A stretch of DNA of 32,383 nt. It comes from a virus. Both the position numbers and the translations under genes were made by a program. Positions 8,656-28,199 of this stretch are shown piece by piece (within the stretch, counting starts at the first letter, position 1; every line of letters begins with the position of its first letter). The stretch spans positions 1 to 32,383 of IMG/VR virus record IMGVR_UViG_3300025087_000233; one strand, 5' to 3'. The notes beneath the pieces were generated by a model. It did no database searches. It had not been told where the DNA came from and saw nothing but the letters and a program-made list of their open reading frames with translations.

Positions 8656-8665
8656 AGAACTGTCT
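8648..8665. repeat. Direct repeat copy A of the nucleotidyltransferase tail / MSND start
   Basis: An 18-bp sequence on the plus strand beginning TTAGACATAGAA, 17/18 identical to 9075-9092. On the minus strand it reads a 'RQFYV stop' codon series followed by ATG-Ser-Asn. The two copies flank gene 8665-9021. Confidence 0.75.
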
Positions 8666-9021: not shown

Positions 9022-9082
9022 AGTCTTTTATCCTCTGCTTTCCAAGAAAAAAATCGCACATGCTTGTATCATCGTTAGACAT
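9014..9082 (-). pseudogene. 22-codon ORF, remnant copy of the 8374-8655 gene start
   Basis: Starts MSNDDTSMCDFF and ends within the start of the 8665-9021 gene. Its first codons repeat those of the gene at 8655 (MSNDTNPSITFF). Best read as the severed original start left behind when the Cys-rich gene entered this junction; it may still be translated as a coupling peptide. Confidence 0.5.
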
Positions 9083-9092
9083 AGAATTGTCT
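9075..9092. repeat. Direct repeat copy B (end of nucleotidyltransferase gene)
   Basis: The partner of 8648-8665, 427 bp away. On the minus strand it encodes the last residues of the nucleotidyltransferase (RQFYV and stop) running into ATG. Confidence 0.75.
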
Positions 9093-10004: not shown

Positions 10005-10083
10005 ATCCTCGCCTTGCCTCGCCATGCCATACCGAACCCGACCGTACCCTACCACGCCTCACCCGACCCAACCAAACCATACC
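10004..10083 (-). repeat. Sixteen tandem 5-nt GGYNN repeats in a gene leader
   Basis: On the minus strand, 80 nt divide exactly into sixteen pentamers, fifteen of the form GG(T/C)NN plus a final GGATA that runs into the ATG of the nucleotidyltransferase. The variable two bases show that selection is on the GG spacing rather than on a simple slipped repeat. A second 16-unit element lies at 17641-17720. Confidence 0.9.
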
Positions 10084-10130
10084 ACATCATAAAATACATA
10101 CGCACACAGATGACGGCGGCACAGTTGAGT
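10084..10130 (-). other. Short intergenic spacer before the GGYNN element
   Basis: About 47 nt after the ATP-grasp stop. Contains a weak GTTGA/TCAAC hairpin (partly over the stop) and an AT-rich stretch with TATGAT but no credible -35. No gene. Confidence 0.3.
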
Positions 10131-11501
10131 TTATTCAACCTTTATCTCCTCGTGTAAGTAGGCAATTGTATCCTTTGCTAGACTCTCGGCCTCGGCCTCC
10201 GTGCTACCCACTGTCAGCACCATGCCTAATCGATCGGGGTGTGACTTGATAGGCTTGAGTATATCGCCAATGTTATAGTTCCAGCGTAATAGTTCGACGC
10301 CGAATGGCATTGTTGCGCCTGTGTCCGCAATGTGTCTACCGGAGAAGTCCAAGTCAGATTCTTGAGGAATGTAGGTTATACGTTTGCCTATCCACTCCGG
10401 CTTCTGGAAAATGAACCGCTGGCAGACGTGGCGAGTCTCACGAGTAAGTTTGAGTTCTGGCGGTTTGCCTACGGCTAATGACACTGCATCGCCTAGTATA
10501 TCCCACCCGTAGGCCAATGGAATTATATGACTGGCGAAGTAGCCTCCTGACAAACGCGGTGCTAACTCGACGATGTACACCGTGCCAGTTGGATGCACAA
10601 TAATATCACCCTTCACCGTACAATTGTTCCAACCGAGTACCGAGCAAGCGTGTTCAATTGCGGTGATGATACCCTTGTAGGTATTCTCATTCTCAAACTG
10701 TATCGGTGAGTTGCTACCATCCTCAATGATATACGGTGCATACTCCCCTAGAGTATTGTCGTAGTTGCGCTGTGCAATGGCGGTCATAATGACTTGACCA
10801 TTGTACACAACTGATTCAGTTGAGAGTTGCATCCCATCGACGAACTTCTGCGCGATGATCATACGCTGCTTAGGAGAGTAGGATAAGGCTTCGACAAACG
10901 CCTTGCGGTAGTCGTGCGCGTTGTAGTAGCGTACACCACGTGCACCGCGCGAGTCTACTGGCTTTACAATATCGTATTCGCATACCTCATTCCATTCCAT
11001 TTCGGGGTTGACTACTATTGTATCAGGCACGAGAATGTTCGCCTCGGCTAGGCAACGAACTTGGTAGAGTTTATTCGCACCGTAGGAGGCGGCTTTCTCG
11101 CCAATGGTAGAACAGCGGAGACGTTCGGCCAGTCGTGCCTGTACTTCTGGCGCGTCAATAGCACAGCACAGTACACCGGCAATCTCCAGTGGACTGAGGA
11201 ATGTGCGTATGTCCTCTTGTCTTTGGTTAGTGCGCCACTGGAAAGCGATAAGCGATGCTTGCGCACTGTAGCAGTCAGCCTCAACGAAGATGGCTGGATC
11301 GCGCCTACTTTCATCAGGCTGAGGAACGCGACGGGAGATATAACGATGACGATGATCGTAGACAGTTTGCTTCACCCACTCAGCAGCGGCACAGTGAGGG
11401 TTGCGGTCGAAGATGACAGGCCGATAGCCAGCATTGCGAACGTACTGGATGATGGGGAGGGACTCAACACCCCCGCCGAGGCAGAGAAGGTTAGCGGTCA
11501 T
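10131..11501 (-). CDS. ATP-grasp ligase-type enzyme of the sugar cluster
   Basis: 456 residues from ATG 11501, which overlaps the previous stop as ATGA (a longer frame upstream is just the neighbour in another frame). N-terminal Rossmann-like part begins MTANLLCLGGGVESLP; the ATP-grasp core shows DIVKPVDSRGARGV (nucleotide lysine and glycine loop), IAQKFVDGMQLSTESVV, and the metal/ATP block GTVYIVELAPRLSGGYF. ATP-grasp enzymes join an acid to an amine through an acyl phosphate; similar proteins occur in nonulosonate and surface-sugar loci. Here it may attach an amino-acyl group to the sugar. The substrate is inferred only. Confidence 0.85.
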   Translation of the reverse strand: MTANLLCLGGGVESLPIIQYVRNAGYRPVIFDRNPHCAAAEWVKQTVYDHRHRYISRRVPQPDESRRDPAIFVEADCYSAQASLIAFQWRTNQRQEDIRTFLSPLEIAGVLCCAIDAPEVQARLAERLRCSTIGEKAASYGANKLYQVRCLAEANILVPDTIVVNPEMEWNEVCEYDIVKPVDSRGARGVRYYNAHDYRKAFVEALSYSPKQRMIIAQKFVDGMQLSTESVVYNGQVIMTAIAQRNYDNTLGEYAPYIIEDGSNSPIQFENENTYKGIITAIEHACSVLGWNNCTVKGDIIVHPTGTVYIVELAPRLSGGYFASHIIPLAYGWDILGDAVSLAVGKPPELKLTRETRHVCQRFIFQKPEWIGKRITYIPQESDLDFSGRHIADTGATMPFGVELLRWNYNIGDILKPIKSHPDRLGMVLTVGSTEAEAESLAKDTIAYLHEEIKVE

Positions 11502-11908
11502 GATTTTGGACTCATGCGATCTGAATACTGTTTTCCACACCTGGAACACTGATACCAATAATAATAACCGTAAAATGCATCTATAATTTCCACCCATTCC
11601 CTCCATATATACTTGTCTCTTCCTAAATCCCTCACTACATTTATACCCATCTCTTCGCAAAAGCATGTACGAGGCTCATCTATCATTCGTTCTTTGAGAT
11701 ACTTGGCCCGTTCTTTATCTGACGCCCCTTTTCCCATATCGTGTAATTCTTGTGCTTTACTGAAAAGATAGTCGGTAAAGATTTGCATATTTGGGTCTTC
11801 ACAAAATTTATCAAGAGAGTCTATTATCTGCCCAATTTCCCAAACACCCCTTGCGTATATTCCGTTGGAAAATGCAGGAACATGTCGCTTCGTCCTTTCT
11901 GTCTTCAT
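11498..11908 (-). CDS. Hypothetical protein with C-terminal CxxC
   Basis: 136 residues from ATG 11908 (GGGAG at 6 nt). Mostly helical and charged, ending in an aromatic cluster and a lone CSRCGKQYSDR pair. No recognised domain. Inserted between the methyltransferase and ATP-grasp genes; no clear flanking repeat was found for it. Confidence 0.65.
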   Translation of the reverse strand: MKTERTKRHVPAFSNGIYARGVWEIGQIIDSLDKFCEDPNMQIFTDYLFSKAQELHDMGKGASDKERAKYLKERMIDEPRTCFCEEMGINVVRDLGRDKYIWREWVEIIDAFYGYYYWYQCSRCGKQYSDRMSPKS

Positions 11909-11940
11909 GGACAACTCCCGTTGTGCAAGGTGAACATGCT

Positions 11941-12672
11941 TTAGCCCTCTGCCATCTCCAGCGTGTCGCCAAACACGATCAACCTCTGCTTGTACCCTCC
12001 CCTATCATCGGGGTAGTAGTCCTTATGCCACACCTTCCAGTGATCGCCAATGTACTTCGTCAAATGCTCTGCGTCAACGGCAAAATGTAGGCCGTTCAAC
12101 TCACTCCCATCGCCACGTATGAGGTTGACGAATGCACAGTTGGCAACGTCCATTAGTCTATGAAACAAGCGCAATTGCTCGTCTGGCGCAAGGTGTTCTA
12201 CTACGTCAAAGCAAATGGCAATATCATGCTTGGGTATCTCCTCGCTGAAGTCAAGCATATACACTGGCAGATCAAGTCGCCGTTCCTTGAGTCGCCACAA
12301 GAGGAACATGAGCGAGAAAGAGTGTATGTCCGCAAACGACACCTTGTATCCAAGTGTGTGCAGGGCGAGGCCGTCTTGTCCACCGCCAGAACCATAGTCT
12401 ATCACCGAACACGGACATCGGTCAGCGGTTGCCTTGAGCAATTCGGCAAGGTATGGCCTATGTATCCCCGCTGCTGACAAGCCGATAGACTGATAGACAA
12501 AGATCAAACTGTTGCGTAGGAAATCCTCATTACTCGGATACTTTTGAGACTCCTCGTGTCCCTTTTCATCCAGCGCATTGCACCAGTTCAATTGGAAACT
12601 AGGGCCGAGGAAACGTTCCAGTTCCCAAAAATCGGGATGAATGTAACGAGGAGAAGGGAGTTGAAGACCCAT
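11941..12672 (-). CDS. SAM-dependent methyltransferase
   Basis: 243 residues. Motif I is CSVIDYGSGGGQDGLAL at about residue 88-105, followed by SFADIHSF (acidic ribose contact) and ICFDVVEHLAPDEQL (motif IV/post-motif pattern of class I methyltransferases). Resembles methyltransferases of sugar or lipopolysaccharide loci. AAGGGG 9 nt before the ATG belongs to the 9-codon ORF just upstream. Target unknown; probably an O- or N-methylation of the cluster's sugar. Confidence 0.82.
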   Translation of the reverse strand: MGLQLPSPRYIHPDFWELERFLGPSFQLNWCNALDEKGHEESQKYPSNEDFLRNSLIFVYQSIGLSAAGIHRPYLAELLKATADRCPCSVIDYGSGGGQDGLALHTLGYKVSFADIHSFSLMFLLWRLKERRLDLPVYMLDFSEEIPKHDIAICFDVVEHLAPDEQLRLFHRLMDVANCAFVNLIRGDGSELNGLHFAVDAEHLTKYIGDHWKVWHKDYYPDDRGGYKQRLIVFGDTLEMAEG

Positions 12673-12702
12673 TTATAGTTTCCCCTTCTTCGGCCAAGTC
12701 AT
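12673..12702 (-). other. 9-codon ORF MTWPKKGKL, apparent copied end of the ThDP gene
   Basis: Starts in an ATGA overlap with the preceding gene and stops just before the methyltransferase ATG. Its sequence matches the last residues of the ThDP enzyme 250 bp upstream (MTWPKTGGRA). The nucleotide differences in the first five codons are all synonymous, so this looks like an old duplicate of that gene's 3' end rather than chance. Its AAGGGG serves as ribosome site for the methyltransferase. Confidence 0.55.
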
Positions 12703-12926
12703 TTGTTGAAAATCTTTCCAATGGACGAGGGGTACATAGACTGATAAGCATTCTTCCATTCGCTTCTGACATTTGCATGAATGAAATCAGCATAGGCTTC
12801 TAAGCATGTCTCAAGAGTCCTTTGACCAGTAGCAATTGTGAGTATATGCCCCGAATACTCATAATTACTAAACACTCCGTTACAATACGGACATAGCACC
12901 TGAGTTTTCTTTCCTACAGTTATCAT
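12699..12926 (-). CDS. Small CxxC protein, probable inserted cassette gene
   Basis: 75 residues starting MITVGKKTQVLCPYCNGVF, ATGA-coupled to the ThDP gene. One CPYC pair near the N-terminus, the rest helical with Trp/Tyr. It separates the ThDP gene's real end from a copy of that end (12673-12702). No function recognised. Confidence 0.65.
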   Translation of the reverse strand: MITVGKKTQVLCPYCNGVFSNYEYSGHILTIATGQRTLETCLEAYADFIHANVRSEWKNAYQSMYPSSIGKIFNK

Positions 12927-14530
12927 GCGCGACCTCCAGTTTTAGGCCATGTCATATCATCTGCCGTTTTGCCACCCTCAAGTATAGGCCAAACGCCTTC
13001 TTCCTCAATCTTGTGAACCGTAAGCGAGAGACCATAGGCTTTGGCAATAGCCTCAAAGTCAGGGTTGTGCCACGTTGTCTCACGCGGGTCGTATCCGTTG
13101 AGTCGAGCGAACTGGCTTACAATTCCCCCATTGCTATTATCAAGTATGTGTATATGCAAGTCACAGCGAGGGTAGTATTCGGCTAGAGTGCCGAGTTCGT
13201 TGAGGGAGAGTTGGAATGACCCATCTCCATCAATAAGGACAACTTTTTTGCCTGTAGCAATGGCAATCCCAATAGCCATCGGTAGTCCTGCACCCATGCA
13301 ACCGTGTCCAGCCGATGTAACAAACTGGCGTTTCGGATAATCCAATGTAAGGTGACGAGCCGCGTGTTGCTGATGACTTCCCACTCCCGATACGAATATG
13401 GTGTCTCCCACATATTGTTCATCTATCTCTCCTATCACTCGTGCAAATTGCGAGTCGGGCGGTTGCATATCGTAGAACTTCTCACCGCAGGTTGTTGACC
13501 AGTTCTCGTACCAGTCCGAGCCAACGAGGTCTTCATTGAGATACGCAAGTACCTCTTCACAAGTAGAGTGTATTGCTAAGTCACAACGTACACGGCTTTG
13601 GTCTAACTCCGCTTGGTCAATATCCACTCGCACGATCTTCTTGTCCTTTGCCCACGCCTCAACTTCTGTGCCTGTTTGCCTCACGTCAAGTCGTGCGCCA
13701 AGAGCCACAACCAAGTCACTATGCTGAACAACCCAATTAGCACAAGGCATACCAGTATGTCCCACCATGCCGAAGTAGAATGGAGAGCTGGTTGGCACAA
13801 GTCCTACTGCGGGAAGGGAGGCGACACAGGAAATGCCCAGCCTTTCCACCAGCGAGCGTAACTGTTCAACGCTCGCACGACAGCCAGCGCCAATGAGAAA
13901 GACGGGTCGTTCCGCGCTGGTGAGTAGGCCAGACAGTTCAACAAAAGACTCGTATGATGGATGTGGATCGTGCCGCACGTGCTTATCAAGGTATTCCCCA
14001 TTGGGGTCTACCTCACGCCTTTGGATGTCCATTGGCATATCTATTAGAACTGGCCCATTGCGTCCCGACTGTGCAATAGACAAGGCATCAATAAAGTCTT
14101 GTACCAACCTATCGCCATTGCGTCCAACGTAGTCACCGAACGAGGCTTTGGTAATTGGCTTAGACAATTCTATTGCTGGAACTTCCTGAAAGGCTCTTTG
14201 CCTAACTTCTGAACGAGAAGCGAGGTTGTTAGACCCAACCTGACCACTCAATACAACAATAGCGCATGAATCATAGTAACTATCTGCTATTCCCGTAATG
14301 GCATTAGTCATACCGGGTCCGCTGGTTACACAAACAAATTGGGGATTTTTCGTCGCCTTATATGCTCCAATAGCACAAAACATTGCTCCGTGTTCCGATC
14401 TAGTAGTTATTACTTCTAGGTCAATGCAATGTGCCGCATCAAGCAGAGGGTAGATCGTTCCTCCGGGATAACACCACAATCTTGCACCTACACTCTTTAT
14501 CTCGCGTGCTATCCACTCAACTCCATTCAT
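12923..14530 (-). CDS. Thiamine diphosphate enzyme, acetolactate-synthase-like
   Basis: 535 residues with the three-domain layout of the family. Catalytic Glu in ITTRSEHGAMFCAIGAYKAT (Glu46); the PYR domain block VTSGPGMTNAITGIADSYYD; the central domain; and the ThDP/Mg motif GDGSFQLSLNELGTL ... ILDNSNGG near the C-terminus. Acetolactate-synthase relatives transfer a two-carbon unit from pyruvate to a carbonyl. In sugar loci, related enzymes (YerE of yersiniose synthesis) add an acetyl branch to a keto-sugar, a plausible role next to dehydratase and aminotransferase genes. A biosynthetic acetolactate synthase is less likely in this setting. The ATG lies about 9 nt after GAGGGG. Confidence 0.85.
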   Translation of the reverse strand: MNGVEWIAREIKSVGARLWCYPGGTIYPLLDAAHCIDLEVITTRSEHGAMFCAIGAYKATKNPQFVCVTSGPGMTNAITGIADSYYDSCAIVVLSGQVGSNNLASRSEVRQRAFQEVPAIELSKPITKASFGDYVGRNGDRLVQDFIDALSIAQSGRNGPVLIDMPMDIQRREVDPNGEYLDKHVRHDPHPSYESFVELSGLLTSAERPVFLIGAGCRASVEQLRSLVERLGISCVASLPAVGLVPTSSPFYFGMVGHTGMPCANWVVQHSDLVVALGARLDVRQTGTEVEAWAKDKKIVRVDIDQAELDQSRVRCDLAIHSTCEEVLAYLNEDLVGSDWYENWSTTCGEKFYDMQPPDSQFARVIGEIDEQYVGDTIFVSGVGSHQQHAARHLTLDYPKRQFVTSAGHGCMGAGLPMAIGIAIATGKKVVLIDGDGSFQLSLNELGTLAEYYPRCDLHIHILDNSNGGIVSQFARLNGYDPRETTWHNPDFEAIAKAYGLSLTVHKIEEEGVWPILEGGKTADDMTWPKTGGRA

Positions 14531-14631
14531 TGTGACATACCCCTCCCTACTTGCCCATTATGCCTGACATCTGATTTTCTTATAATGGCAAGTCTTCCAA
14601 TCTTTTTCCCTGTCAGATCAAATGCTTTCAT
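14527..14631 (-). pseudogene. 34-codon ORF resembling the N-terminus of phage HNH/AP2-type proteins
   Basis: MKAFDLTGKKIGRLAIIRKS then a short basic tail; AAGGA 9 nt upstream. The DLTGKxxGRLxxI signature is the start of many phage HNH or AP2-type homing-endonuclease-like proteins, which normally continue with W-C-R-C-D-C-G. That continuation is absent here, so this is either a remnant of such a gene or a very short derivative. It is ATGA-coupled to the ThDP gene. Confidence 0.5.
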
Positions 14632-14636
14632 TTTGA

Positions 14637-15221
14637 TTATTCCTTCACCCACATCCAACCCGGATCGATCAACGTTACGATCCTCTGTGCCGCTACTTCC
14701 ACTGGCATCACCTCTTTACCGGCATAGTGACTCTCTGGCAGTTGACGAAGCATATCAGTCATTACTAAGTCAAAGCGTATGATCTCAATTGTCCAGCCTC
14801 GTCTCTCAACGGCAAAGTCATCTGCTAATGTCTTAGCGTAATGCTCCATCGCGCACTTGGCAGCGGCATAGTGTGGGTTTACCGTAGATGGTCTCTCCAC
14901 TGCCACACTTGACACGACGACGATCTTACAGCCATCTCTAAGTATCTGCCATCCCCATTGAGTGATAATGTTGTAGAAGGTGAGAGGAAAGCGAAATGCG
15001 TCTAGTCCACCGAGTTTTATGTCGCCTGCACAGTAGATAAACGCATCGTACCCGCCTATTTCATCAGCATCGTGACGGAGGTTATAAGTGTGTCGGTTGC
15101 CAAGCGCAACTACGTTGAATTGCTGGCGACCGTAGGCGACGACGTTCCAGTTGAGGGAGGTAAGCAAGTCGGCTGTGGCTTTGCCAATTCCTCTACTGCC
15201 ACCTATGATGAGTGCGTTCAT
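14637..15221 (-). CDS. Short-chain dehydrogenase/reductase of the sugar cluster
   Basis: 194 residues, short for an SDR (usually about 250). NAD(P)-binding IIGGSRGIGKATA at 5-17, active-site Ser in VVVSSVAV (104/105), and catalytic YAAAK with Tyr118 and Lys122. The C-terminal substrate region is reduced. ATGA-coupled to the upstream methyltransferase. Likely reduces or oxidises a keto group of the cluster's intermediate. Confidence 0.85.
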   Translation of the reverse strand: MNALIIGGSRGIGKATADLLTSLNWNVVAYGRQQFNVVALGNRHTYNLRHDADEIGGYDAFIYCAGDIKLGGLDAFRFPLTFYNIITQWGWQILRDGCKIVVVSSVAVERPSTVNPHYAAAKCAMEHYAKTLADDFAVERRGWTIEIIRFDLVMTDMLRQLPESHYAGKEVMPVEVAAQRIVTLIDPGWMWVKE

Positions 15222-16060
15222 ACTTTCACCGCCATATAACTAATGTCCCGTCCCCAACTATGCCAGCCCCACAGTTGATACTTAGCGCGACGGTACTTAT
15301 CACCTGTTTCCAAGTCGTGTGCTATACGTTGCTGATGCAACTGACAACCAAGTGTGGGATCGTCAAGATAATTCAGACCGTCCATCAAGTATTGCTCTGG
15401 TTGCCACGAGCCATAAGCGTCAAAGCAACGAAAGCCATTCTTCCAGAGAAATGAGGTGAAGTCGTCTGACCAGTAATTGATATGCGTCTTGTCTAGCCAG
15501 TAGTATGGTCTATTGATCTTTTCCATTGCACGAAACTGCATACTGGAGAAGTCATTGGGAATGGTAATAAGCAACACACCATTCGTTGCTAGTCGCTTAT
15601 AGCACCACTGCAAAAAGTGAGTAGGGTCGGCAAGGTGCTCCATCACCCAATGTGCTGAGAGTATACCGTAGTCTGTGCCAGAGTAGTCAGCATACTCGCA
15701 CCATGCCACGCGCGGGTCAGAATGTGCCAAATCGTAGTCTGGTTCTACCCCCGTTGCGTCCAAGCCAAACGTCTGAGCAGAGTTGAGAAAGTGACCCGTG
15801 CCACAACCCACATCGAGTAAGCGATGATTAGGCAAATGAGACTCACACAATACCAGCCAGTCTCGATGTATGGCTTGATGCCACGCCAGGTCTCGTTCAT
15901 AGTCATCTCGCATAGTAGGCTTCATTGTGCTGTGGTAAATACCGCTTGGGTAGATAGAGGTATCGGGTATGGGATCAAGATGTTTGAAACAACAAACATC
16001 ACACTGTATCGCACATAGGTTATCCTTTGTGGCTACAAGTTTTCCAGAGTGGTTAGACAT
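15218..16060 (-). CDS. SAM-dependent methyltransferase with N-terminal Cys motif
   Basis: 280 residues. An N-terminal Cys group (CAIQCDVCCF, about 16-25) may bind zinc, as in C-methyltransferases of sugar loci. Motif I is LLDVGCGTGHFL; later GVEPDYDLA, SAHWVMEHLADPTHF and LLITIPNDF complete a class I fold. The N-terminal Cys plus class I core recalls NDP-sugar C-methyltransferases, but the C-terminal half of that family is not obvious. Ribosome site GGAG six nt before ATG; overlaps the previous gene by 8 bp. Confidence 0.83.
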   Translation of the reverse strand: MSNHSGKLVATKDNLCAIQCDVCCFKHLDPIPDTSIYPSGIYHSTMKPTMRDDYERDLAWHQAIHRDWLVLCESHLPNHRLLDVGCGTGHFLNSAQTFGLDATGVEPDYDLAHSDPRVAWCEYADYSGTDYGILSAHWVMEHLADPTHFLQWCYKRLATNGVLLITIPNDFSSMQFRAMEKINRPYYWLDKTHINYWSDDFTSFLWKNGFRCFDAYGSWQPEQYLMDGLNYLDDPTLGCQLHQQRIAHDLETGDKYRRAKYQLWGWHSWGRDISYMAVKV

Positions 16061-16256
16061 CCACCTCTCCTAATGCCTCTTGACACTTCTTCCAGATCAG
16101 ACCAGCGATGTGCGAGTCCATGCTTTCTGGACTATCATCTAGAGGATCCGCCTCGTAATCAACACCAGAGGGTATATCATCAATAAGCCTTTGTATCTCG
16201 CGGATCGCATCAATGAGAACAACGATCTTTTTTGATAATTCTATCTTAGTTGGCAT
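16053..16256 (-). CDS. Small helical hypothetical protein
   Basis: 67 residues from ATG 16256 with GGAGG 4 nt upstream; the first half is amphipathic helix (KIELSKKIVVLIDAIREIQR), the second acidic. No function known. The ribosome site and ATG are part of an 18-bp repeat shared with the end of the PseG-like gene. Confidence 0.6.
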   Translation of the reverse strand: MPTKIELSKKIVVLIDAIREIQRLIDDIPSGVDYEADPLDDSPESMDSHIAGLIWKKCQEALGEVDV

Positions 16257-16270
16257 GTGGCCTCCGCTAC
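16253..16270. repeat. Direct repeat copy of the PseG-like gene tail
   Basis: 18 bp matching 16608-16625 at 16 positions (plus-strand GCATRTKGCCTCCGCTAC). The two copies, 355 bp apart, flank gene 16267-16611 and each supplies a GGAGG ribosome site and ATG. Confidence 0.7.
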
Positions 16271-16611
16271 CCCTCTTGCTCACTCACTGGATACCACCCC
16301 GGAGGCAATTCACCCGTTTCGCGTGCCGCTATTACATCTGCTTGGAGATAGGCGGGAATGACAACATTGTACGCCTTGCCACTTTTTATCTTGTCCAAGA
16401 GATCGCTAATTGCCTCTTCCGCCTCCTCTGGTTTCATGTAAACAAGATGTGTGATGTGCGTTGTGTCTATTGGCCCGTCAAACAGTTGATAGGGGTCTTT
16501 ATTACAGTCTTTACTAAACGCATGAAGATCGTCAAGTCCCACAATGAGCAGACAGCCGTGTTCATCAACGAGAAACAGGAACGAATAGGTAATGTTCTTT
16601 ACGTCGTGCAT
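16267..16611 (-). CDS. Small hypothetical protein, probable inserted cassette gene
   Basis: 114 residues; ATG inside the last codons of the PseG-like gene with GGAGG 4 nt upstream. Reads as an alpha/beta domain (YSFLFLVDEHGCLLIVGLDD, THITHLVYMKPEEAEEAISD). No recognised family. Flanked by 18-bp direct repeats (16253-16270, 16608-16625). Confidence 0.65.
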   Translation of the reverse strand: MHDVKNITYSFLFLVDEHGCLLIVGLDDLHAFSKDCNKDPYQLFDGPIDTTHITHLVYMKPEEAEEAISDLLDKIKSGKAYNVVIPAYLQADVIAARETGELPPGWYPVSEQEG

Positions 16612-17630
16612 ATTGCCTCCGCTACTCTCTCTGCCCCGCGACCGTCAACGAGTTCCTTGCCTCGTTCGCTTACCTCGCGCCAGAGTTCTTTATCTTTTCC
16701 CATGCCGAGGAAGATAAGCAACTGGCCGTAATCAATATCATCCCATATGCCGATGAGGGTAAGCAAACCTCTCATTCGTTTGGCCGTTTCACAATGATCC
16801 TCGCTCCAACCAGTGCAGGCAACGGGTAAGCCTAAGCATAGCGCCTCGTACACCGTCATACCCAGTGCCGTCACAAGCATATTGGACGCCAGCATGTGCG
16901 GCGCAAGGGAGGTAGGCTTGTGAATTATCTCTATTTCCTTGTGTACCTCGTCTAGCCATTTAGAGGCTTGTCCGTAGACAACACGCACTGGATGAGCGTA
17001 ACTTGTGTTGTCCTGACCACAGAAGTTGGCGATAGTCGCTGATAAATTGTGGGGATCACTGCCTCCCATACTCACCAATGTACCGAGATGCTCACGTTCG
17101 GCATATGCCTGCCGCAGGTTTGCATATATCTCAGACAGCACAAGATACTCTGGGCCGTAGAGCAAGTTCTTAGCAATTGGCGTGCCAATGTTGATCTCCA
17201 TTGCTTGTTCAATGTGCAGGTCAACGCAGGCATCAACTACCCTTTGACTAACATTGCTCAAGGCATAACCCACGCCACCAATGATAACCACTTTGCCAGC
17301 ATGTTTCCGCATCTGTCTAAGTGTGGAAGGTTCTGGCCCGTGCTCGACATCGGCAATGGCAACATCGGGTTTGAGAACACGAAAGTAGTTGTGTATGCCA
17401 CGATAACCGCCACCGCCATCAACGCTGTTTACTCCATAGACGGCTACGTTGCGCCAGTCACTAAACGTATCAACGAGTATGTCATAACCTACAGTGTTAT
17501 TGAGAGTGAGATAGACTATCTCGTGACCGCGTTTGGCGAGAACTTTGCCGAGGACGATCTCGCGCTTGATATGCCCAAGTCCAGCAGAACGGTCACCTGT
17601 GACGAAGACGGCGATGGACTTCTTATTCAT
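16599..17630 (-). CDS. PseG-like GT-B-fold nucleotide-sugar hydrolase/transferase
   Basis: 343 residues. N-terminal VTGDRSAGLGHIKREIVLGK carries the GxGHxxR signature of PseG and related GT-B enzymes; LVSMGGSDPHNLSATI in the middle and ALGMTVYEALCLGLPVACTG near 250-270 are the C-terminal nucleotide-binding blocks. PseG removes UDP from the bacillosamine-like intermediate before the NeuB-type condensation, which suits the neighbouring PseB-, NeuB- and NeuA-like genes. The 5' leader is the second (GGYNN)16 element followed by GGAG. Confidence 0.8.
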   Translation of the reverse strand: MNKKSIAVFVTGDRSAGLGHIKREIVLGKVLAKRGHEIVYLTLNNTVGYDILVDTFSDWRNVAVYGVNSVDGGGGYRGIHNYFRVLKPDVAIADVEHGPEPSTLRQMRKHAGKVVIIGGVGYALSNVSQRVVDACVDLHIEQAMEINIGTPIAKNLLYGPEYLVLSEIYANLRQAYAEREHLGTLVSMGGSDPHNLSATIANFCGQDNTSYAHPVRVVYGQASKWLDEVHKEIEIIHKPTSLAPHMLASNMLVTALGMTVYEALCLGLPVACTGWSEDHCETAKRMRGLLTLIGIWDDIDYGQLLIFLGMGKDKELWREVSERGKELVDGRGAERVAEAICTT

Positions 17631-17640
17631 TAGATGAAAA

Positions 17641-17720
17641 TCTCCTTACCCTACCTTACCTTATCCCATCTTACCATGCCATACCTCACCTGACCACACT
17701 TTACCATACCGCACCTGACC
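17641..17720 (-). repeat. Second tandem array of sixteen 5-nt GGYNN-type repeats
   Basis: 80 nt on the minus strand divide into sixteen pentamers, mostly GGTNN (exceptions AGTGT, GATGG, GATAA, GGCAT), the last being GGAGA, the ribosome site of the PseG-like gene. The array fills the whole gap between the oxidoreductase stop and the PseG leader. Unit number and length equal those at 10004-10083 while the variable bases differ. Confidence 0.9.
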
Positions 17721-18551
17721 TCATTTTCCCAACATCACTTTTTGGACTTGTAGTGCTTCAGGAAATGTACATAAGTCACCACTCTCCCCTGTGTCCAAAT
17801 AATGCAACCATGCCTGCATCTCGTCTATGTACATTTGGTTGTCAGGTTCAATGAATGAGTGATACTGCTCCATGCCACCTTGAACAATGAGCGAGTCGTC
17901 TTTGTCAATAACAACTCGTGTATCCTCGGTGCGTAACAATGCCGTGCAAGTCGCCACGCGAAATGAGGAGGCCATGTCTGCATGGAGGAATGAGGTTATG
18001 TCACTGGTATGACGCATGGCTACCATTGCTGCAATGCCACCATCGTTAATCGTTGAGGCCTTAGCATTCCCGCATATCCATAGCGCAAGGTCAATGCTGT
18101 GAGAGAGCATTGTTTCAAGAGGCGTCACGCCATACTTCTGATAAATGCTCTCGCTCCCGTAAATATGCAGGTAGATAAGACGCTCGACTAGTGTTTCTTT
18201 GATATGACGGAAGAGGGGGTGATAGCGATATTGATAACCCACTGCTATGCGCGGTAGTGTTTTAGTTTGTAGGAACGATGCACGCTTTTTGTCAAACAAA
18301 GGCTTCTCCATGAAGATAGCATATGCGCCACAGTCTATGGCTAAAGCGAAGTGATGGTAATGCAACTCGGTTGGCGAGCAGATGTACACCACGTTACCCG
18401 CAAACAGGTCTTTGGCCTTTTCGGGGTAGGGGTAGTCTGCCTCTGACGCAATAAGATCAATGATGATGATCTCCGCATCGGGTTGAAGCGCGCGAAGATT
18501 AGCCATGTGCCGCTGGCCTATCGAGCCTGCACCAACGAAGATGTGCTTCAT
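17721..18551 (-). CDS. Gfo/Idh/MocA-family sugar oxidoreductase
   Basis: 276 residues from ATG 18551 (ATGA overlap; a GTG at 18560 with better-spaced GAGG is an alternative adding three residues). NAD(P)-binding HIFVGAGSIGQRH, Glu82-Lys83-Pro84 of the family EKP motif (YAIFMEKPLFD), GYQYRYHP and the His of MLSHSIDLALW. Length is slightly short for the family. In nonulosonate and amino-sugar loci these enzymes oxidise the sugar at C3 or C4 before amination; an aminotransferase gene lies two small genes upstream. Confidence 0.87.
   Translation of the reverse strand: MKHIFVGAGSIGQRHMANLRALQPDAEIIIIDLIASEADYPYPEKAKDLFAGNVVYICSPTELHYHHFALAIDCGAYAIFMEKPLFDKKRASFLQTKTLPRIAVGYQYRYHPLFRHIKETLVERLIYLHIYGSESIYQKYGVTPLETMLSHSIDLALWICGNAKASTINDGGIAAMVAMRHTSDITSFLHADMASSFRVATCTALLRTEDTRVVIDKDDSLIVQGGMEQYHSFIEPDNQMYIDEMQAWLHYLDTGESGDLCTFPEALQVQKVMLGK
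18539..18551. repeat. 13-bp direct repeat (oxidoreductase start)
   Basis: Minus strand ATGAAGCACATCT, the first codons of the oxidoreductase, repeated exactly at 18852-18864, 313 bp away, on the other side of the small gene 18548-18850. Confidence 0.8.
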
Positions 18552-18850
18552 GCTATCCACTCTAATACCTCTGCTTCGCGTCCCTGTCCTCTTAGCCAAG
18601 AACTATAACATTCATCACTATGAAAAAAGAGATACTGCCGTTTTGTCACTTCGTCAAATGGAACTTGTATCCAACCATCGGGAATAGCCCACGACCACAT
18701 ATCAGTAGCATAACTCCGACTGTTCATTCCACTTCCGTGATCCTCCTCCTCCATAATATCTTGAGCAGTTTTACTATTGAGGGGAACATCCCGTTCAATA
18801 GTCAGACCACAGTTATCACAGACTGTTTTGAAGTGTGCAAGTATGCTCAT
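18548..18850 (-). CDS. Small CxxC protein, probable inserted cassette gene
   Basis: 100 residues: CDNCGLTIERDVPL near the N-terminus and HSDECYSSW further on could form one zinc site around a Trp-rich middle (MWSWAIPDGWIQVPF). The Cys/Trp pattern resembles small phage zinc proteins. It is bracketed by exact 13-bp repeats of the next gene's start codons. Confidence 0.7.
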   Translation of the reverse strand: MSILAHFKTVCDNCGLTIERDVPLNSKTAQDIMEEEDHGSGMNSRSYATDMWSWAIPDGWIQVPFDEVTKRQYLFFHSDECYSSWLRGQGREAEVLEWIA

Positions 18851-18851
18851 T

Positions 18852-18864
18852 AGATGTGCTTCAT
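18852..18864. repeat. 13-bp direct repeat, second copy
   Basis: Same 13 bases as 18539-18551, placed just upstream of gene 18548-18850 and running through the TGA stop of the gene ending at 18861. Confidence 0.8.
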
Positions 18865-19124
18865 CCCCATAGTGCCACCTCTTCTTTTGCTTCCTTCATT
18901 CCTGCTCGCTCTCCCGCACAGTATACTCTGAGCAAGAATTTGGTTGACACATCATCCATACGACGATCTTGTTGTATCAACTCTAGCAGAGGGGGAATGC
19001 GAAATGGCGCGTCTTCTGCATCACCAAACGGCCATTTATAACCACAATTAGGACAGCCATCATTGTCCATGGGTAGGTCAACAGCACAACTCGGACAGAC
19101 TACTGCTTGTGACAAATTAGCCAT
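18861..19124 (-). CDS. Small zinc-ribbon protein
   Basis: 87 residues: MANLSQAVVCPSCAVDLP then CPNCGYKW make a compact two-pair zinc ribbon at residues 10-30, followed by a helical region. Overlaps the aminotransferase end by 8 bp, GGGG at 7 nt. Function unknown; one of several zinc mini-proteins in the cluster. Confidence 0.7.
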   Translation of the reverse strand: MANLSQAVVCPSCAVDLPMDNDGCPNCGYKWPFGDAEDAPFRIPPLLELIQQDRRMDDVSTKFLLRVYCAGERAGMKEAKEEVALWG

Positions 19125-20406
19125 TCCTGTACCCCATCAGTTGCAACACCGTCTCGGTTGCCTCAAGTGTCTTATCCACATCCTCAAGTGTATGTGAAAG
19201 AGTCGCAAACTGTGGTTGGTGTAAGAGAATATCGTAGTCGTCAACCATGAAATTCTGCCATTGACGTATGGCATTGCGTGTTTCGGGATAGTCATTGGTG
19301 GGGACAATGGCCGAGCGCGAGGGACGACCAATGCACTTGGCAGGGAAACTGTATTTGCTAAACAAATGGTCGAGTTCTACTTTCAACTTAGACCCGACAT
19401 GCACAATGCCATCATTGGATAAACCACCGTAAAGTTCTGCGTTATGCTTCTCGTACTGCTCAAGCGTCCACAGTGCATCGGCAAACCCTAGCGGGTGATC
19501 GTTGTAGGTGAATGAGGCGAATACCTCGTCTGTCAATGCCTGCATTACATCAACAGGGCCGAGCAGGGCGGCAACTTTGCCGTAGGTCGAGAGTGCCTTG
19601 CCGAGGCAGATGAAATCGGCTTGGATATTCCGAGTCCATTCCACCAATCGGCCTGCACCTTGTCCCGGTAAATAATTCATGCGTGAGTAGTATTCCAGCG
19701 CGCCAGCAGGTGCGTAGCGAAAACCAGTTACAATGTCATCAAGAATGAAATATGCACCTTTTTGCCGATAGTAATGAGCAATGTTATACAACCCATCAGC
19801 AGCATCGTGTTCATTCTCAACAGATGGTACTTCAACGATTGCACAGGCTATGCCTTCACCAGTTTTCTCCATTGCGTCCAATGACATACCTTCAAATGGT
19901 ATGTCAAAACGCGCCTCCGCATTTGCATAAAGCACACCCTTATTTTGTGGTTTGAAGGCGAACACCGGCGATGATCCACCGTGATAGCCAACACTGACGA
20001 ATGCCTCGCGTACCGTTGCGTAGCGTGCTAACGCAACAGCGGCTTGACATGCGTCTGTGCCATTGGAGAAGAAGCGAATGCCGATGTCAGGTGAGCGTAA
20101 GTAGGGTGCATAAAGCGAGGCAAGTTTATCGGCCAACTGTTGCTCTAGCACAGGCGCGTATGAACCAAGTGAGACTTTGCCAGTGGACATATGCCCTATG
20201 AGATGATCAATCAATTCTGCTGTTAGTGAGTTGGTATACGATGGATACCCAAGCAACGGCCCAAACTGTCCCATAGGCCAACTGAGTATCCTACGACCAT
20301 CTTCAAGCCATTCATATGCACCAGAACAACGAGTGGTGCAACAGGGTTTGCCTGGTCGCTTGCCGCGTGACTGCGTGCTACTTCCGCCAATGACTATTGC
20401 ACTCAT
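19117..20406 (-). CDS. PLP-dependent aminotransferase, GSA-aminotransferase (class III) fold
   Basis: 429 residues from ATG 20406, chosen for its GGGAG at 6 nt. An in-frame ATG at 20484, overlapping the previous stop, would add a Cys-rich 26-residue leader. Core: FFSNGTDACQAAVALAR, SVGYHGGSSPVF, YFILDDIVTGFRYAP with the cofactor Asp (223), and CLGKALSTYGKVAALLG with the PLP lysine (Lys270). The ASFTYNDHPLGFADALWTLE block also matches glutamate-1-semialdehyde aminotransferase relatives. Nonulosonate loci normally use a DegT/PseC-type aminotransferase, so this one may aminate a keto-sugar instead. Confidence 0.85.
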   Translation of the reverse strand: MSAIVIGGSSTQSRGKRPGKPCCTTRCSGAYEWLEDGRRILSWPMGQFGPLLGYPSYTNSLTAELIDHLIGHMSTGKVSLGSYAPVLEQQLADKLASLYAPYLRSPDIGIRFFSNGTDACQAAVALARYATVREAFVSVGYHGGSSPVFAFKPQNKGVLYANAEARFDIPFEGMSLDAMEKTGEGIACAIVEVPSVENEHDAADGLYNIAHYYRQKGAYFILDDIVTGFRYAPAGALEYYSRMNYLPGQGAGRLVEWTRNIQADFICLGKALSTYGKVAALLGPVDVMQALTDEVFASFTYNDHPLGFADALWTLEQYEKHNAELYGGLSNDGIVHVGSKLKVELDHLFSKYSFPAKCIGRPSRSAIVPTNDYPETRNAIRQWQNFMVDDYDILLHQPQFATLSHTLEDVDKTLEATETVLQLMGYRNG

Positions 20407-20480
20407 TTCATTCTCCCTAGAAGAACAATTGTTGTAACAATGAACATGATTACAGCAACAGACAAATTGAAAAGAATCGC

Positions 20481-20618
20481 TCATTGTCCCCACATCAAGT
20501 TTACATATATGTCTTCCTGTGAAAATGCTCTATAGAAAGAGTATATGTTAATAGAGAGAATTAGGAGAAAAACAACAATACCCCCAATGGTTTCTGCGTT
20601 TATCTCTTCTCTCTCCAT
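20481..20618 (-). CDS. Small single-span membrane protein
   Basis: 45 residues starting MEREEINAETIGG; one transmembrane segment (IVVFLLILSINIYSFY) follows an acidic N-terminus. It overlaps the previous tiny gene and its stop overlaps the 20484 ATG. Too short for family assignment. Confidence 0.5.
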   Translation of the reverse strand: MEREEINAETIGGIVVFLLILSINIYSFYRAFSQEDIYVNLMWGQ

Positions 20619-20695
20619 ATCAACCACTGTATAAGCAGGAATAGGAACACGGCACGCAGGGTGTTGCTAATTCGTCGTAGAATGCGACCGATCAT
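20600..20695 (-). CDS. Very small basic membrane peptide
   Basis: 31 residues: basic start (MIGRILRRISNTLR), one hydrophobic span (AVFLFLLIQWLIW) and a basic end. ATGA-coupled to the upstream gene, with AGGA directly before it. Supported mainly by the unbroken chain of overlapping starts and stops. Confidence 0.45.
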   Translation of the reverse strand: MIGRILRRISNTLRAVFLFLLIQWLIWREKR

Positions 20696-20943
20696 TTCCT
20701 GCGTTTCCCATTCACCTTTTTCTCCATCAACTTCTTTGTCGCCCTCGCCAGCGCGATCTCCCGCCCGCGCTCAGGCAGGAATTCATCGCAGTTGGGGTTG
20801 CGCTTGGTAATACCAAAGGGAACAGAACCTATGCTTTTGACATCTAATACTAACAGGCAAACGGTGAAATTCCCCTCGCATAAATACACGGGCGTGTATT
20901 TATCAAGCACCTTGATCATATGGTCGTGAAGTTGGGCATTCAT
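20692..20943 (-). CDS. Small hypothetical protein
   Basis: 83 residues: beta-rich N-terminal part with CEGNFTVCLLVLDVKSI and a strongly basic C-terminal helix (ATKKLMEKKVNGKRRK). ATGAATG overlap with the previous stop. No recognised motif. Confidence 0.6.
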   Translation of the reverse strand: MNAQLHDHMIKVLDKYTPVYLCEGNFTVCLLVLDVKSIGSVPFGITKRNPNCDEFLPERGREIALARATKKLMEKKVNGKRRK

Positions 20944-21092
20944 TTTGTGTCTCTCTTGCTTGTTCTAATCGGAATAGTTTGATATATTCCCCCCTCGCCA
21001 ACAACTGGTAAACAACCAGACTTCACATCGAAATTACGATTCGCCCAAAGTGACATAACATATATCATATCATTTGAGTTGGGAATTTTCAT
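20940..21092 (-). CDS. Tiny hypothetical protein
   Basis: 50 residues starting MKIPNSNDMIYVMSLWANRN, five bases after the NeuB-like stop. Ribosome site weak (GCGG). Supported by position in the coupled gene chain rather than by any motif. Confidence 0.4.
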   Translation of the reverse strand: MKIPNSNDMIYVMSLWANRNFDVKSGCLPVVGEGGIYQTIPIRTSKRDTK

Positions 21093-21096
21093 AATG

Positions 21097-21819
21097 TCAC
21101 CGCATCTGCTCCACTCTGCGAATATCCTCGACCATGCGTTTGAAGTCCTGCGGCATGAGCGACCAGCCTGCTTCAGGATCGTCATTGTGAAACTTGATAT
21201 GCTTTTCGATAGCGCACGCGCCACGAGAAACGGCTAGGCAAACGTCCAACCAGTCAGGAGAATGACTGCTCCATCCCCAGTCATGTTTCAAGTCCATAGT
21301 TGGTGGAATACGAGGGGTAATGGCTGGATATTCAGGCATACAAGAAAGGTATATCCTATTGCGTGGAGGAACTGGTGGCATGATGTACTTTGTGGTATCA
21401 AATGACTGAAGCACAGGAAGCGGGGAGAGATCGCACATGCTTTGCAACGCGTCATTGCCAAATTCGCGTGTGGCAAGTTTGAGGAAGTCTGCACCCGTGT
21501 CCTCGCACAAGTGTACCGCCTCTTCATCGAACACGCTTGCGCCTGCCACGAGTCCATATTCATGGCACAACTCAACGAAGTGTTGAAACCAGTCACGCGG
21601 GAATTCAACACGCTTCTTCTGCTCCCACTCACTCTCAGGAAAGTGTGTATGCCTGAACAACTGTATTTTTGCGGCCTGTGCGCCAGATAGCGCAACGTCA
21701 CGAATGCAGAGTTCAAGATCGTCCGAGGTGATATTCATGTGCGAGAGAATGTTACTGCACATTTCCGCGATGACAAAGGTAGGCTGGCCGTAGCCGATGG
21801 TGTGCGTGCCGATGCGCAT
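21097..21819 (-). CDS. NeuB-like nonulosonate synthase, TIM-barrel domain only
   Basis: 240 residues from ATG 21819 (GGAGG at 8 nt). NeuB-family blocks: PTFVIAEMCSNI, GAQAAKIQLF, GLVAGASVFDEEAVHL, GADFLKLATRE, then SSHSPDWLDVCLAVSRGACA and IEKHIKF before MPQDFKRMVEDI. NeuB enzymes condense a 2,4-diamino hexose (or ManNAc) with phosphoenolpyruvate. Family members are usually about 340 residues with a C-terminal antifreeze-like SAF domain that completes the dimeric active site; here it is absent, and no SAF domain is seen nearby. It may act without it or have a changed reaction. Confidence 0.8.
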   Translation of the reverse strand: MRIGTHTIGYGQPTFVIAEMCSNILSHMNITSDDLELCIRDVALSGAQAAKIQLFRHTHFPESEWEQKKRVEFPRDWFQHFVELCHEYGLVAGASVFDEEAVHLCEDTGADFLKLATREFGNDALQSMCDLSPLPVLQSFDTTKYIMPPVPPRNRIYLSCMPEYPAITPRIPPTMDLKHDWGWSSHSPDWLDVCLAVSRGACAIEKHIKFHNDDPEAGWSLMPQDFKRMVEDIRRVEQMR

Positions 21820-21823
21820 TGTG

Positions 21824-21994
21824 TTAACCTCCTCCCGCATATATGCCAAACAATGCACATGCCATACCAAACACGATCACTGTCACGAAGATGATGTTCC
21901 TCAGTGCAAGCAACAGTCTCAACGCAAATGACGGTGGATAGCGCAGAGGCGAGAACTTGACGGGGTAGTTGTACAAATAGGGTGAGTAGTTCAT
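21824..21994 (-). CDS. Small membrane protein, paralogue of the one at 22650
   Basis: 56 residues: Tyr/Pro-rich N-terminus (MNYSPYLYNYPVKFSPLRYP) and one span (NIIFVTVIVFGMACALFGI), ending AGGG. ATGA-coupled to the RNA ligase gene. The span and end resemble the 37-residue protein before the ligase gene (IIFITLVVSL ... RAGG). The terminal glycines are encoded by the ribosome site of the next gene. Confidence 0.6.
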   Translation of the reverse strand: MNYSPYLYNYPVKFSPLRYPPSFALRLLLALRNIIFVTVIVFGMACALFGIYAGGG

Positions 21995-22647
21995 TTGAAG
22001 TCCCTATATTTGAGTTTCCACATCAGGCGATTTCCATATCGGTTGAATAGTATTGGTACAGTACGTGCCACAATTCCCTCAGCACGACAACCAGTGCCAC
22101 CGTCTTGTGTTGCAACAAAACTGTCTACGATAAGTCGCTCCAGATCGTCCAAAGACCGAGGGAGATAATCTACGACAGACACAAGCGGCACGGTGAGAAT
22201 GTTCAATTTGTTGGCAATGTCCACCAGTGCGTCCTGTTCCAACCACCAACGACCTACCAGCACATCAAATAATCTGAATGACACTCCCTTGCGATACGCT
22301 CCACCACCCTTTTGTATTTTCTCTCCGTATCCCTCGCCAAACAGAATCACGTCATTTTCTCCAGCGGTCTCGAAAACTTGAGACATCAACTCTGGTGTAA
22401 AGGTACTGTTCAAGTAGTTGATCAATGTGGAGGGAATTTGAGCACTATCGGTTCGACCGCCAAATACAAGCCGTCTGTTGAATTGTTCATCCCTTAGCCA
22501 CATGATACGGATGTTAGTACCATCCATCTTTTCTGTGAGATGCCATTGGTTGACAAGCGCAAATTCTGGAAGACGTAGTTGTGACGGGATAACAGCATGA
22601 GTTCTTTCATCACGGTCGTAAAGAGTTTCTATCTTAGGATATTCCAT
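21991..22647 (-). CDS. RNA ligase-family nucleotidyltransferase (Rnl2-like)
   Basis: 218 residues from ATG 22647 (GGAGG at 6 nt; the ATG six bases upstream is too close to it). Motif I LTEKMDGTNIRI with the AMP-accepting Lys40, SFRLFDVLVG as motif III/IIIa, CRAEGIVART as motif IV and LMWKLKYRDF as motif V: a complete covalent nucleotidyltransferase core. Phage RNA ligases repair tRNAs or other RNAs nicked by host defence. It sits inside the sugar operon, between two related membrane mini-genes, and shares the phage with a large structured RNA, but a link is only a guess. Confidence 0.87.
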   Translation of the reverse strand: MEYPKIETLYDRDERTHAVIPSQLRLPEFALVNQWHLTEKMDGTNIRIMWLRDEQFNRRLVFGGRTDSAQIPSTLINYLNSTFTPELMSQVFETAGENDVILFGEGYGEKIQKGGGAYRKGVSFRLFDVLVGRWWLEQDALVDIANKLNILTVPLVSVVDYLPRSLDDLERLIVDSFVATQDGGTGCRAEGIVARTVPILFNRYGNRLMWKLKYRDFK

Positions 22648-22649
22648 TT

Positions 22650-22763
22650 TCATCCTCCCGCACGCGAGATAGCGTACATCAACGATACGACAAGCGTAAT
22701 GAAAATGATCCAGAACAGGGCCATCACTATGGCTTTCAGCACGACTTGGAGTTTTCTGATCAC
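22650..22763 (-). CDS. Very small single-span membrane protein
   Basis: 37 residues from a GTG overlapping the PseB-like stop (GTGA). Basic start (MIRKLQVVLKA), span (IVMALFWIIFITLVVSLMYA), end SRAGG. Related in its last 20 residues to the protein at 21824. The C-terminal Ala-Gly-Gly comes from translating the ligase gene's GCGGGAGGA ribosome site. Confidence 0.6.
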   Translation of the reverse strand: MIRKLQVVLKAIVMALFWIIFITLVVSLMYAISRAGG

Positions 22764-23710
22764 TTGCGTATTAGTTCCTTCAATTCGTCTCGTGTAAGCC
22801 TCTGTACCATATCGCTTGATATGGCATGGTCGAGTCTCGCGCCATCTCGCGGTTCATAGTTCCACACGCCGCGTATCTCATGGTTTGGCTCGACCACATA
22901 CGACCATTCTAAGTCTACAGTATGAGAGGCTTCGTAGTCGGAGATAAGAAACTCATGAGAGCGATCCCCAAAGCGGGGTGGGATATTAGTAAACCGCTTG
23001 TCAGGGAATACCTCGGTAAACGCAATGGCAAGATCGTACAAGTTCCACGCGCTACACTTCGGCACGTAGACCTCGCCGCCGCGCATATCGTCAATGGCGT
23101 GACAGGCGAAGTCTAGCCAGTAATTCATCGGGAGATGAAAGCGTGTGGCAGTGGGTTGCGTAACGGATAGTACGTCTGAATTGTGCCAGCGTTCTACGAC
23201 TGATCCTCGGCTACCCCAGACGTTGCCCCCGCGAATGCAGGAGAAGCGCGAGTTGTAGGATACACCGAGGATGTTCGCATTGATTAACAAGCCTTCACTA
23301 AGCATCTTCGTTGCGCCATACCTGTTCATTGGCTGGCAACATTTGTCAGATGACACAAGGAGCGAGCGTGGCACGTAGTTGGCAATGGCCGCTTGGATGA
23401 CGCTCTGTGTACCGAGGACGTTGATGGATACCATCTCGGCGGTGTGCAACTCACCGGTGGGGACAATTTTCAAAGCCGCCGCGTGAACTACTACATCAAC
23501 ATTGTGGAAGGCTATCTTGAGCCGTTCGAGGTCGCGTATGTCACAGAGGACGTAGGAGACGCGAGAGGAGGGAGGTATCTCCGCCATCAACGCAACCTGC
23601 TTGTGTTCATCGCGCGAGATGAGGCGAAGAGAGTCGAGGGTGTTTGCTAACAAGTATCTAGCGAGCGACGAGCCGAACGAGCCGGTCGCACCGGTCAGGG
23701 CATAGATCAT
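22760..23710 (-). CDS. PseB/CapD-like NDP-GlcNAc 4,6-dehydratase
   Basis: 316 residues, the usual length for PseB. NAD-binding TGATGSFG (6-13), SRDEHKQ (32-38), VHAAALKIVP, and the catalytic trio Asp122-Lys123-Tyr131 with Lys135 in SSDKCCQPMNRYGATK; GGNVWGSRGSVV follows. This is the inverting UDP-GlcNAc 4,6-dehydratase/5-epimerase pattern that starts pseudaminic-acid and related pathways. Position fits: it is the first gene of the long sugar operon, directly behind a consensus-like promoter. No ribosome site is seen and the predicted 5' leader is only a few bases. Confidence 0.9.
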   Translation of the reverse strand: MIYALTGATGSFGSSLARYLLANTLDSLRLISRDEHKQVALMAEIPPSSRVSYVLCDIRDLERLKIAFHNVDVVVHAAALKIVPTGELHTAEMVSINVLGTQSVIQAAIANYVPRSLLVSSDKCCQPMNRYGATKMLSEGLLINANILGVSYNSRFSCIRGGNVWGSRGSVVERWHNSDVLSVTQPTATRFHLPMNYWLDFACHAIDDMRGGEVYVPKCSAWNLYDLAIAFTEVFPDKRFTNIPPRFGDRSHEFLISDYEASHTVDLEWSYVVEPNHEIRGVWNYEPRDGARLDHAISSDMVQRLTRDELKELIRK

Positions 23711-24229: not shown

Positions 24230-24520
24230 CTATTGTAATTTGTCAATGGTTGAAAAAGCATCCCTGCCATTCTCCAAGAAACCAAGTTTGAATCCAATAC
24301 CCCGAACAATTTGTATCATCCACAATGCAGCGTAACTCATAAGAATAACAATGCCGAGACGATCATCCGATTCTGTTGAGTTGCCCAACATAGCTACTGC
24401 CGCAATCATAGCGAAGAAACCCAAAACAAGGAAAACAGGAGAACACACCGCAACATAATCGCATATGACGAAGAATGCTTTTGTGATATTCACCATCCAA
24501 TTGTCAGAATCGGACTGCAT
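24230..24520 (-). CDS. Small membrane protein with two spans
   Basis: 96 residues from ATG 24520 (AAAGGA 8 nt upstream). Two hydrophobic segments (VCSPVFLVLGFFAMIAAVA; LGIVILMSYAALWMIQIV) suggest an inner-membrane protein. Neither lysis motif nor known family is visible; a holin-like role is possible but unsupported. Confidence 0.65.
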   Translation of the reverse strand: MQSDSDNWMVNITKAFFVICDYVAVCSPVFLVLGFFAMIAAVAMLGNSTESDDRLGIVILMSYAALWMIQIVRGIGFKLGFLENGRDAFSTIDKLQ

Positions 24521-28074: not shown

Positions 28075-28085
28075 GGAGGAACTTG

Positions 28086-28199
28086 ACTTAGTGTATGTTT
28101 GACACTAAGTATGCGGGGTTAACTGTTTGTGTAAGTGATACGACTTAGTGTACATTTGACACTATCTCACTGGTACTTAGTGTCATTTATACACTATCT
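28086..28199. promoter_or_regulatory. Three operator-like inverted repeats TAGTGT-N7-ACACTA
   Basis: Copies at 28086-28110, 28143-28167 and 28175-28199. All contain TAGTGT, seven spacer bases and ACACTA, preceded by ACT; the first extends to ACTTAGTG/CACTAAGT. The third covers the -10 of the minus-strand promoter. The symmetric sites at spacings of 57 and 32 bp look like binding sites of a dimeric repressor. Confidence 0.8.

Follow-up and report, generated by a model that had tools for sequence, protein, structure and literature searches.

Among mycobacteriophages of Cluster C1, genes 43-46 of LRRHood are, by comparison with Cali, described as genes gained between 29-bp direct repeats; the repeat is located at the end of the upstream gene and ahead of the next one, relatives carry a single copy, and acquisition by recombination with another phage is favoured by the authors (PMC3029335). 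The same paper describes the mycobacteriophage mobile elements (MPME), 439 bp long, which have inverted repeats and a 6-bp addition and are found in several phages (PMC3029335). In Cluster J mycobacteriophages, free-standing HNH genes are found inserted at the boundary between two genes (excerpts of PMC3706429). Start Associated Sequences (SAS) are 13-bp repeats at gene starts, with a genome-wide consensus at the ribosome-binding site (excerpts of PMC3203893), and homing of T4 introns can involve one-sided illegitimate break repair, driven by the intron endonuclease (excerpts of PMC2988022). Phages gain and lose small genes fast and their genes overlap tightly, and the entry of a gene without damage to its neighbours is a puzzle.

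The locus described here belongs to a viral record of 32,383 nt (IMGVR_UViG_3300025087_000233), analysed over its full length and referred to as the window. Its surroundings are those of a phage, with a Mu-like portal and a terminase. The island at 9075-23710 resembles one for nonulosonic (pseudaminic-type) acid synthesis, with PseB-, NeuB/PseI- and PseG-like proteins, a cytidylyltransferase, an aminotransferase and an oxidoreductase; an acetolactate-synthase-like TPP enzyme and an ATP-grasp protein are also encoded there. On the minus strand the genes at the locus follow in the order P0003, P0001, P0002, with the following features:

18861-19124, minus strand: P0003, upstream neighbour, 87 aa, zinc-ribbon-like (PF10571, E 7e-6, under its curated cut-off)
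18852-18864, minus strand: upstream copy of ATGAAGCACATCT, its ATGA containing the stop of gene 18861-19124 and opening an apparent dead remnant of the oxidoreductase start
18552-18851, minus strand: putative inserted stretch, 300 nt with one repeat copy excluded, without terminal inverted repeats
18548-18850, minus strand: P0001, small gene, 100 aa, with CxxC and HxxxC, remote relative of LittleE gp123
18539-18551, minus strand: downstream copy of ATGAAGCACATCT, the real oxidoreductase start, its ATGA containing the stop of the small gene
17721-18551, minus strand: P0002, Gfo/Idh/MocA-type oxidoreductase, 276 aa (PF01408, E 9e-8)

The first-pass annotation had placed a 13-mer on both sides of the small gene, and this was borne out: ATGAAGCACATCT is found at 18864-18852 and 18551-18539 on the minus strand, in copies identical at 13/13 positions and spaced by 313 nt. 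These are the sole two exact copies in the record, which excludes, for this record, the objection that the 13-mer might be common in the genome; the reversed pattern, used as a control, has 0 exact matches. Beyond the 13 nt the flanks of the two copies are unrelated, the repeat ending abruptly on both sides. P0003 ends with GGG-ATGA, and the same ATGA opens the short frame ATG AAG CAC ATC TAA (MKHI*), corresponding to codons 1-4 of the oxidoreductase followed by an immediate stop, whose TAA in turn overlaps the ATG of the small gene (TAATG). The latter ends as ATA GCA TGA, its stop falling within the ATGA at which the oxidoreductase proper begins. The repeat thus marks the border between the flanking genes, both of which are intact as had been claimed, the upstream stop and the oxidoreductase start each being provided by one copy.

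The repeat is beyond chance in its position, and only weakly so by its word. A search allowing up to two mismatches returned 3 matches against 0.97 expected (100 dinucleotide shuffles, 6 of which reached 3), so that the word alone is unremarkable in a loose search; repeated 13-mers number 61 in the record, both strands counted. The first 13 nt of a gene are found again within 600 nt upstream in 1/50 genes, against 0/2106 pairs of a gene start and another region.

The small gene has a GC3 of 0.35, compared with 0.53 (sd 0.05) in 15 large genes, a feature which is not specific to it because it is common to P0003 (0.36). Its initial description as a zinc gene is a reading of the CxxC and HxxxC motifs; the best Pfam match has E 0.086, the predicted structure is of low quality (pLDDT 50), and no solved relative was found. 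HNH, GIY-YIG and LAGLIDADG matches were absent in Pfam and PHROGs to E 1 and in NCBIfam to E 0.1, as were matches to transposases or recombinases in the three collections, and the insert encodes P0001 alone. Pairwise comparison with LittleE gp123 gave a BLASTP value of 1e-7, with 0/2000 shuffles as good, and a similar stretch (SWEIPCG...CYSIWLRG against SWAIPDG...CYSSWLRG), the collection search reaching just E 0.1. LittleE gp123 (L014 17564-18001) is annotated as a tail fiber, and the adjoining gp125 looks similar to it. The end of the insert, GAGTGGATAGCA, matches over 12 nt the start of the TPP enzyme gene (14518-14507), a match judged to be due to chance because the window contains 174 repeated 12-mers.

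Relatives were sought in a viral collection, queried with P0001, P0002, P0003, the aminotransferase, the terminase, the PseG-like protein, the cytidylyltransferase and a three-member oxidoreductase alignment, in phage records by blastn and in genome contigs. None covering the site, and hence no empty-site relative, was found in these collections, which may omit near-identical records. The viral collection returned distant oxidoreductases (L003, L010 and L009, the last from the same contig as L003) and terminase relatives (L004-L007) ending short of the site; the phage records gave no match to the region, and the genome contigs one distant oxidoreductase (L008). In 3/3 distant relatives inspected (L003, L008, L010) the ATG of the oxidoreductase overlaps the preceding stop as ATGA. 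Among the terminase relatives, L004 matches the window to 7649, and L005 (IMGVR_UViG_3300025117_000241) is 100% identical to window positions 1-6166 and extends past the left end of the window.

Other genes of the window were evaluated by a flank test, in which the left flank of each gene is compared with its right flank, on a hand-made list of 50 minus-strand genes; mismatched flank pairs served as controls, 41 of the 2450 being dropped for overlapping windows, which left 2409. At a score of at least 26, a threshold picked after the scores were seen, own-flank matches were found for 4/50 genes, against 3/2409 mismatched pairs (P 5e-7), and without the P0001 locus, at the same post hoc threshold, for 3/49 (P 3e-5). 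In addition to P0001, the bracketed genes are:

8665-9021, minus strand: second bracketed gene, 118 aa, Cys/His-rich; flank repeats 9092-9071 and 8665-8644, 20/22 identical
16267-16611, minus strand: third bracketed gene, 114 aa; flank repeats from 16632 and 16276
29354-29551, minus strand: fourth bracketed ORF, 65 aa; repeats of a ribosome-binding site plus ATG, from 29574 and 29365

The repeats at the four sites span 13, 22, 25 and 27 alignment columns. At the second site the cytidylyltransferase end, RQFYV*, can be read in each of the two copies, the upstream one of which enters a dead 22-codon frame resembling the start of the next gene (MSNDDTSMCDFFLGK vs MSNDTNPSITFFRLD), the stop of which overlaps the start of the bracketed gene, as at P0001; both differences between the copies are silent in the frames concerned. 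At the third site the downstream copy still reads VAEATCQLR* in the PseG-like frame and the upstream one VAEAICTT*, with one difference which is not silent (I/T). The ORF at 29354-29551 is the least certain gene of the four, with an own-frame codon score of -0.065. Direct repeats 30-1500 nt apart and scoring at least 26 number 9 in the window, whereas 20 dinucleotide shuffles gave 1.35 on average and never more than 4; several of the 9 are promoter, internal or tandem repeats.

Two weaker candidates, 24230-24520 (score 21) and 12699-12926 (score 18), were left out of the count, as was the repeat 2349-2331/1837-1819, in which a promoter-like TTGACA was recognised by eye. Read on the plus strand, the latter (1819-1837 and 2331-2349, 18/19 identical, GGAAAYTGGCACTTGACAA) precedes small plus-strand ORFs and is probably a duplicated promoter. 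L004 was considered as an empty site both for this repeat and for the second bracketed gene, and was unusable in either case, the region being too different or the contig starting too late. A palindrome-like TAGTGT...ACACTA, possibly an operator, is present twice, 57 nt apart (28085-28107 and 28142-28164), and about three 25-bp tandem copies of AAACTATGGCTACACGCAAATGATC occupy 29813-29885, a stretch without called genes.

A start in duplicate is also found within the island:

9976-10138, minus strand: cytidylyltransferase start in duplicate, LNKLNCAAVICVRM from 10138 and MEKLNVAAVIAVRM from 10004

The two copies, several differences between which are silent, are separated by a degenerate GGYNN repeat spacer. 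Such degenerate pentanucleotide spacers, (GGYNN)n, lie between genes on the minus strand at 9985-10108 and 17640-17740; a scan gave three matches in the window, all at those two places, and 0 in 30 base shuffles, and none was seen in the other loci compared, save L001 and L002, which are cuts of this window.

The flank test was applied to known phages by using partial gene lists typed from their annotation (42 plus-strand genes of lambda and 108 of LittleE, 91 minus-strand genes of T4 and 66 of My1). Lambda gave 0/42 and My1 1/66, which is not significant. T4 gave 4/91 at a score of at least 26, with 1.08 expected; the frequent matches among its mismatched flank pairs (96/8101) prevent a clean separation. 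LittleE gave 2/108, with 0.10 expected (P 0.005), and one of the two is gp150, an HNH gene lying between ATGAATGGAATGTTCT and its near-copy ATGAACGGAATGTTCT (15/16). Six relatives, Squint, MiaZeal, Baka, Thibault, NihilNomen and Schatzie, were compared at this site. Squint and MiaZeal are without the HNH gene and carry a single copy, ATGAACGGAATGTTCTGATG, at the end of the helicase. Baka has the HNH gene (gp150) and a downstream copy identical to that of LittleE, while its helicase end, AAATGGAATGTTCT, is a diverged form outside the search expression. Thibault has the HNH gene without the downstream copy, and NihilNomen and Schatzie have a different helicase end and no copy. The single helicase end found in Squint and MiaZeal is thus identical to the downstream copy of LittleE and Baka and differs from the upstream one. 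Most simply, the downstream copy would represent the former junction, and the helicase end on the upstream side would have arrived with the HNH gene, a comparison which supports the recombination route proposed below for P0001. What appears to be the old 3' end of the helicase is still visible downstream of gp150, at L014 28516-29196 in LittleE and at L018 920-1600 in Baka.

With reasonable rather than strong confidence, the small gene is regarded as a recent arrival at a former ATGA overlap, which was duplicated on its entry, probably through recombination with another phage. Insertion with junction duplication, as proposed in the first-pass annotation, is the best reading of the locus and is strengthened both by its recurrence in the same genome and by the LittleE/Baka case with its empty-site relatives. 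Whereas the repeats, the overlaps and the recurrence are observed, the direction of change, the recombination route and any function of the small protein are inferred. Before the event, the TGA of P0003 and the ATG of the oxidoreductase would have overlapped directly as ATGA, and a 300-nt stretch would have entered between the two genes together with a second copy of their junction. The donor would have been another phage, carrying the small gene ahead of the same kind of gene; one joint would have been homologous, within the oxidoreductase, and the other illegitimate, 13 nt inside the start of the recipient's oxidoreductase. With the ATGA overlap duplicated, neither the stop of P0003 nor the start of the oxidoreductase would have been lost. 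In overlapping operons an insert lacking a duplicated junction breaks a neighbour, so that selection would keep the duplicating ones.

The stop-start overlaps further suggest a role for MKHI*, which probably acts as a relay: ribosomes ending P0003 would restart at the ATGA, stop at the TAA, restart at the ATG of P0001 (TAATG) and then reach the oxidoreductase via its own ATGA. A broader proposal, possible and at present doubtful, is that operons with stop-on-start junctions gain genes almost solely via junction-duplicating recombination, that leftover starts serve as relay frames, and that the resulting scars, at least four of them and of different ages in this genome, may be readable, datable and reversible. 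If true, recombination between the repeat copies would delete the gained gene precisely. A neighbour-sparing scar, present several times in one genome and checkable against empty sites in well-sampled phages, would provide a simple test of recent gene gain, based on sequence and requiring no close relative. A literature search for a general rule of this kind gave the precedents cited and, in what was seen, no statement of it, which is not proof of its absence.

Among the alternatives, the 300-nt stretch could be a mobile cassette, introduced by a transposase- or recombinase-like enzyme through a 13-nt staggered cut, the repeat being the target-site duplication. This is considered unlikely, even though the exact 13/13 repeat, its abrupt ends and the intact neighbours all agree with it, and the identity of the two copies makes a fresh target duplication indistinguishable, at this locus, from recombination between genomes. 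The insert lacks terminal inverted repeats (985/1000 shuffles score as well), as some elements do; it has no second copy in the window, where the 13-mer occurs just twice, and no relative in phage and plasmid collections except the remote protein match; and the repeats vary in length from one site to another. The 'cassette' of the first-pass annotation, in the sense of a defined mobile element, is accordingly not supported. Varied repeat lengths, together with the lack of inverted repeats and of a recombinase and with the largely silent differences, favour recombination over a transposase. Mostly silent differences, small as their numbers are, are expected of copies which diverged as working genes in two genomes.

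It is quite improbable that the left copy is the leftover of a second oxidoreductase, in an arrangement of oxidoreductase-1, small gene and oxidoreductase-2 which lost all but 13 nt of copy 1. This would yield the same sequence, and partial copies of genes, in diverged form, do occur in the genome, as is seen at the cytidylyltransferase start, but both a duplication and a deletion are required and the oxidoreductase has left no remnant exceeding 13 nt. It is very improbable that the repeat is instead a functional signal associated with gene starts and copied before genes, comparable to the SAS of Cluster K mycobacteriophages and involving no insertion scar: ATGAAGCACATCT is found just twice, it spans codons 1-4 of a coding sequence, and the gene behind its upstream copy does not begin with it. 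Of the four brackets, two (starts 16611/16256 and 29551/29341) do hold a purine stretch resembling a ribosome-binding site plus ATG; nevertheless, start regions match at a score of at least 26 in 3/49 neighbours against 2/1176 non-neighbours, an excess confined to the top scores, the mean scores being not significantly different (rank test, P 0.32). Coincidence is scarcely credible: composition alone would give about 0.22 direct repeats of 13 exact nt within 600 nt in the whole window, which speaks for it, but none of the control pairs described above repeats the first 13 nt of a gene.

Recombinational gain of the small gene may finally be set against the described systems, as these appear in the excerpts cited at the beginning. 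SAS share with ATGAAGCACATCT the length of 13 bp and the position at gene starts, but in the present genome each pair has its own sequence. MPME are, like the P0001 insert, very small insertions in phage genomes; their inverted repeats, 6-bp addition and recurrence in several phages have no counterpart seen for it. Homing in T4 corresponds to the route proposed here, in that a homologous joint is paired with an illegitimately repaired one, but is driven by an intron endonuclease, none of which was seen at the P0001 site. The Cluster J HNH genes are likewise inserted at a gene boundary, and in LittleE a near-copy of that boundary stands on the other side; the insert in that case is a candidate homing endonuclease, whereas P0001 is not recognisably one. 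The closest likeness is to LRRHood and Cali, with a direct repeat on both sides of the gain and at a gene boundary, and the locus is provisionally filed as the same kind of gene gain. LRRHood gained four genes over 1.35 kb, with a 29-bp repeat and a known empty site, while here a single gene lies between 13-bp repeats and no empty site was found; the repeat at P0001, unlike that of LRRHood, consists of the first letters of the downstream gene, where an ATGA overlap is formed. What may be added here to the LRRHood/Cali case is the presence of several such sites in a single genome, together with the relay frames.
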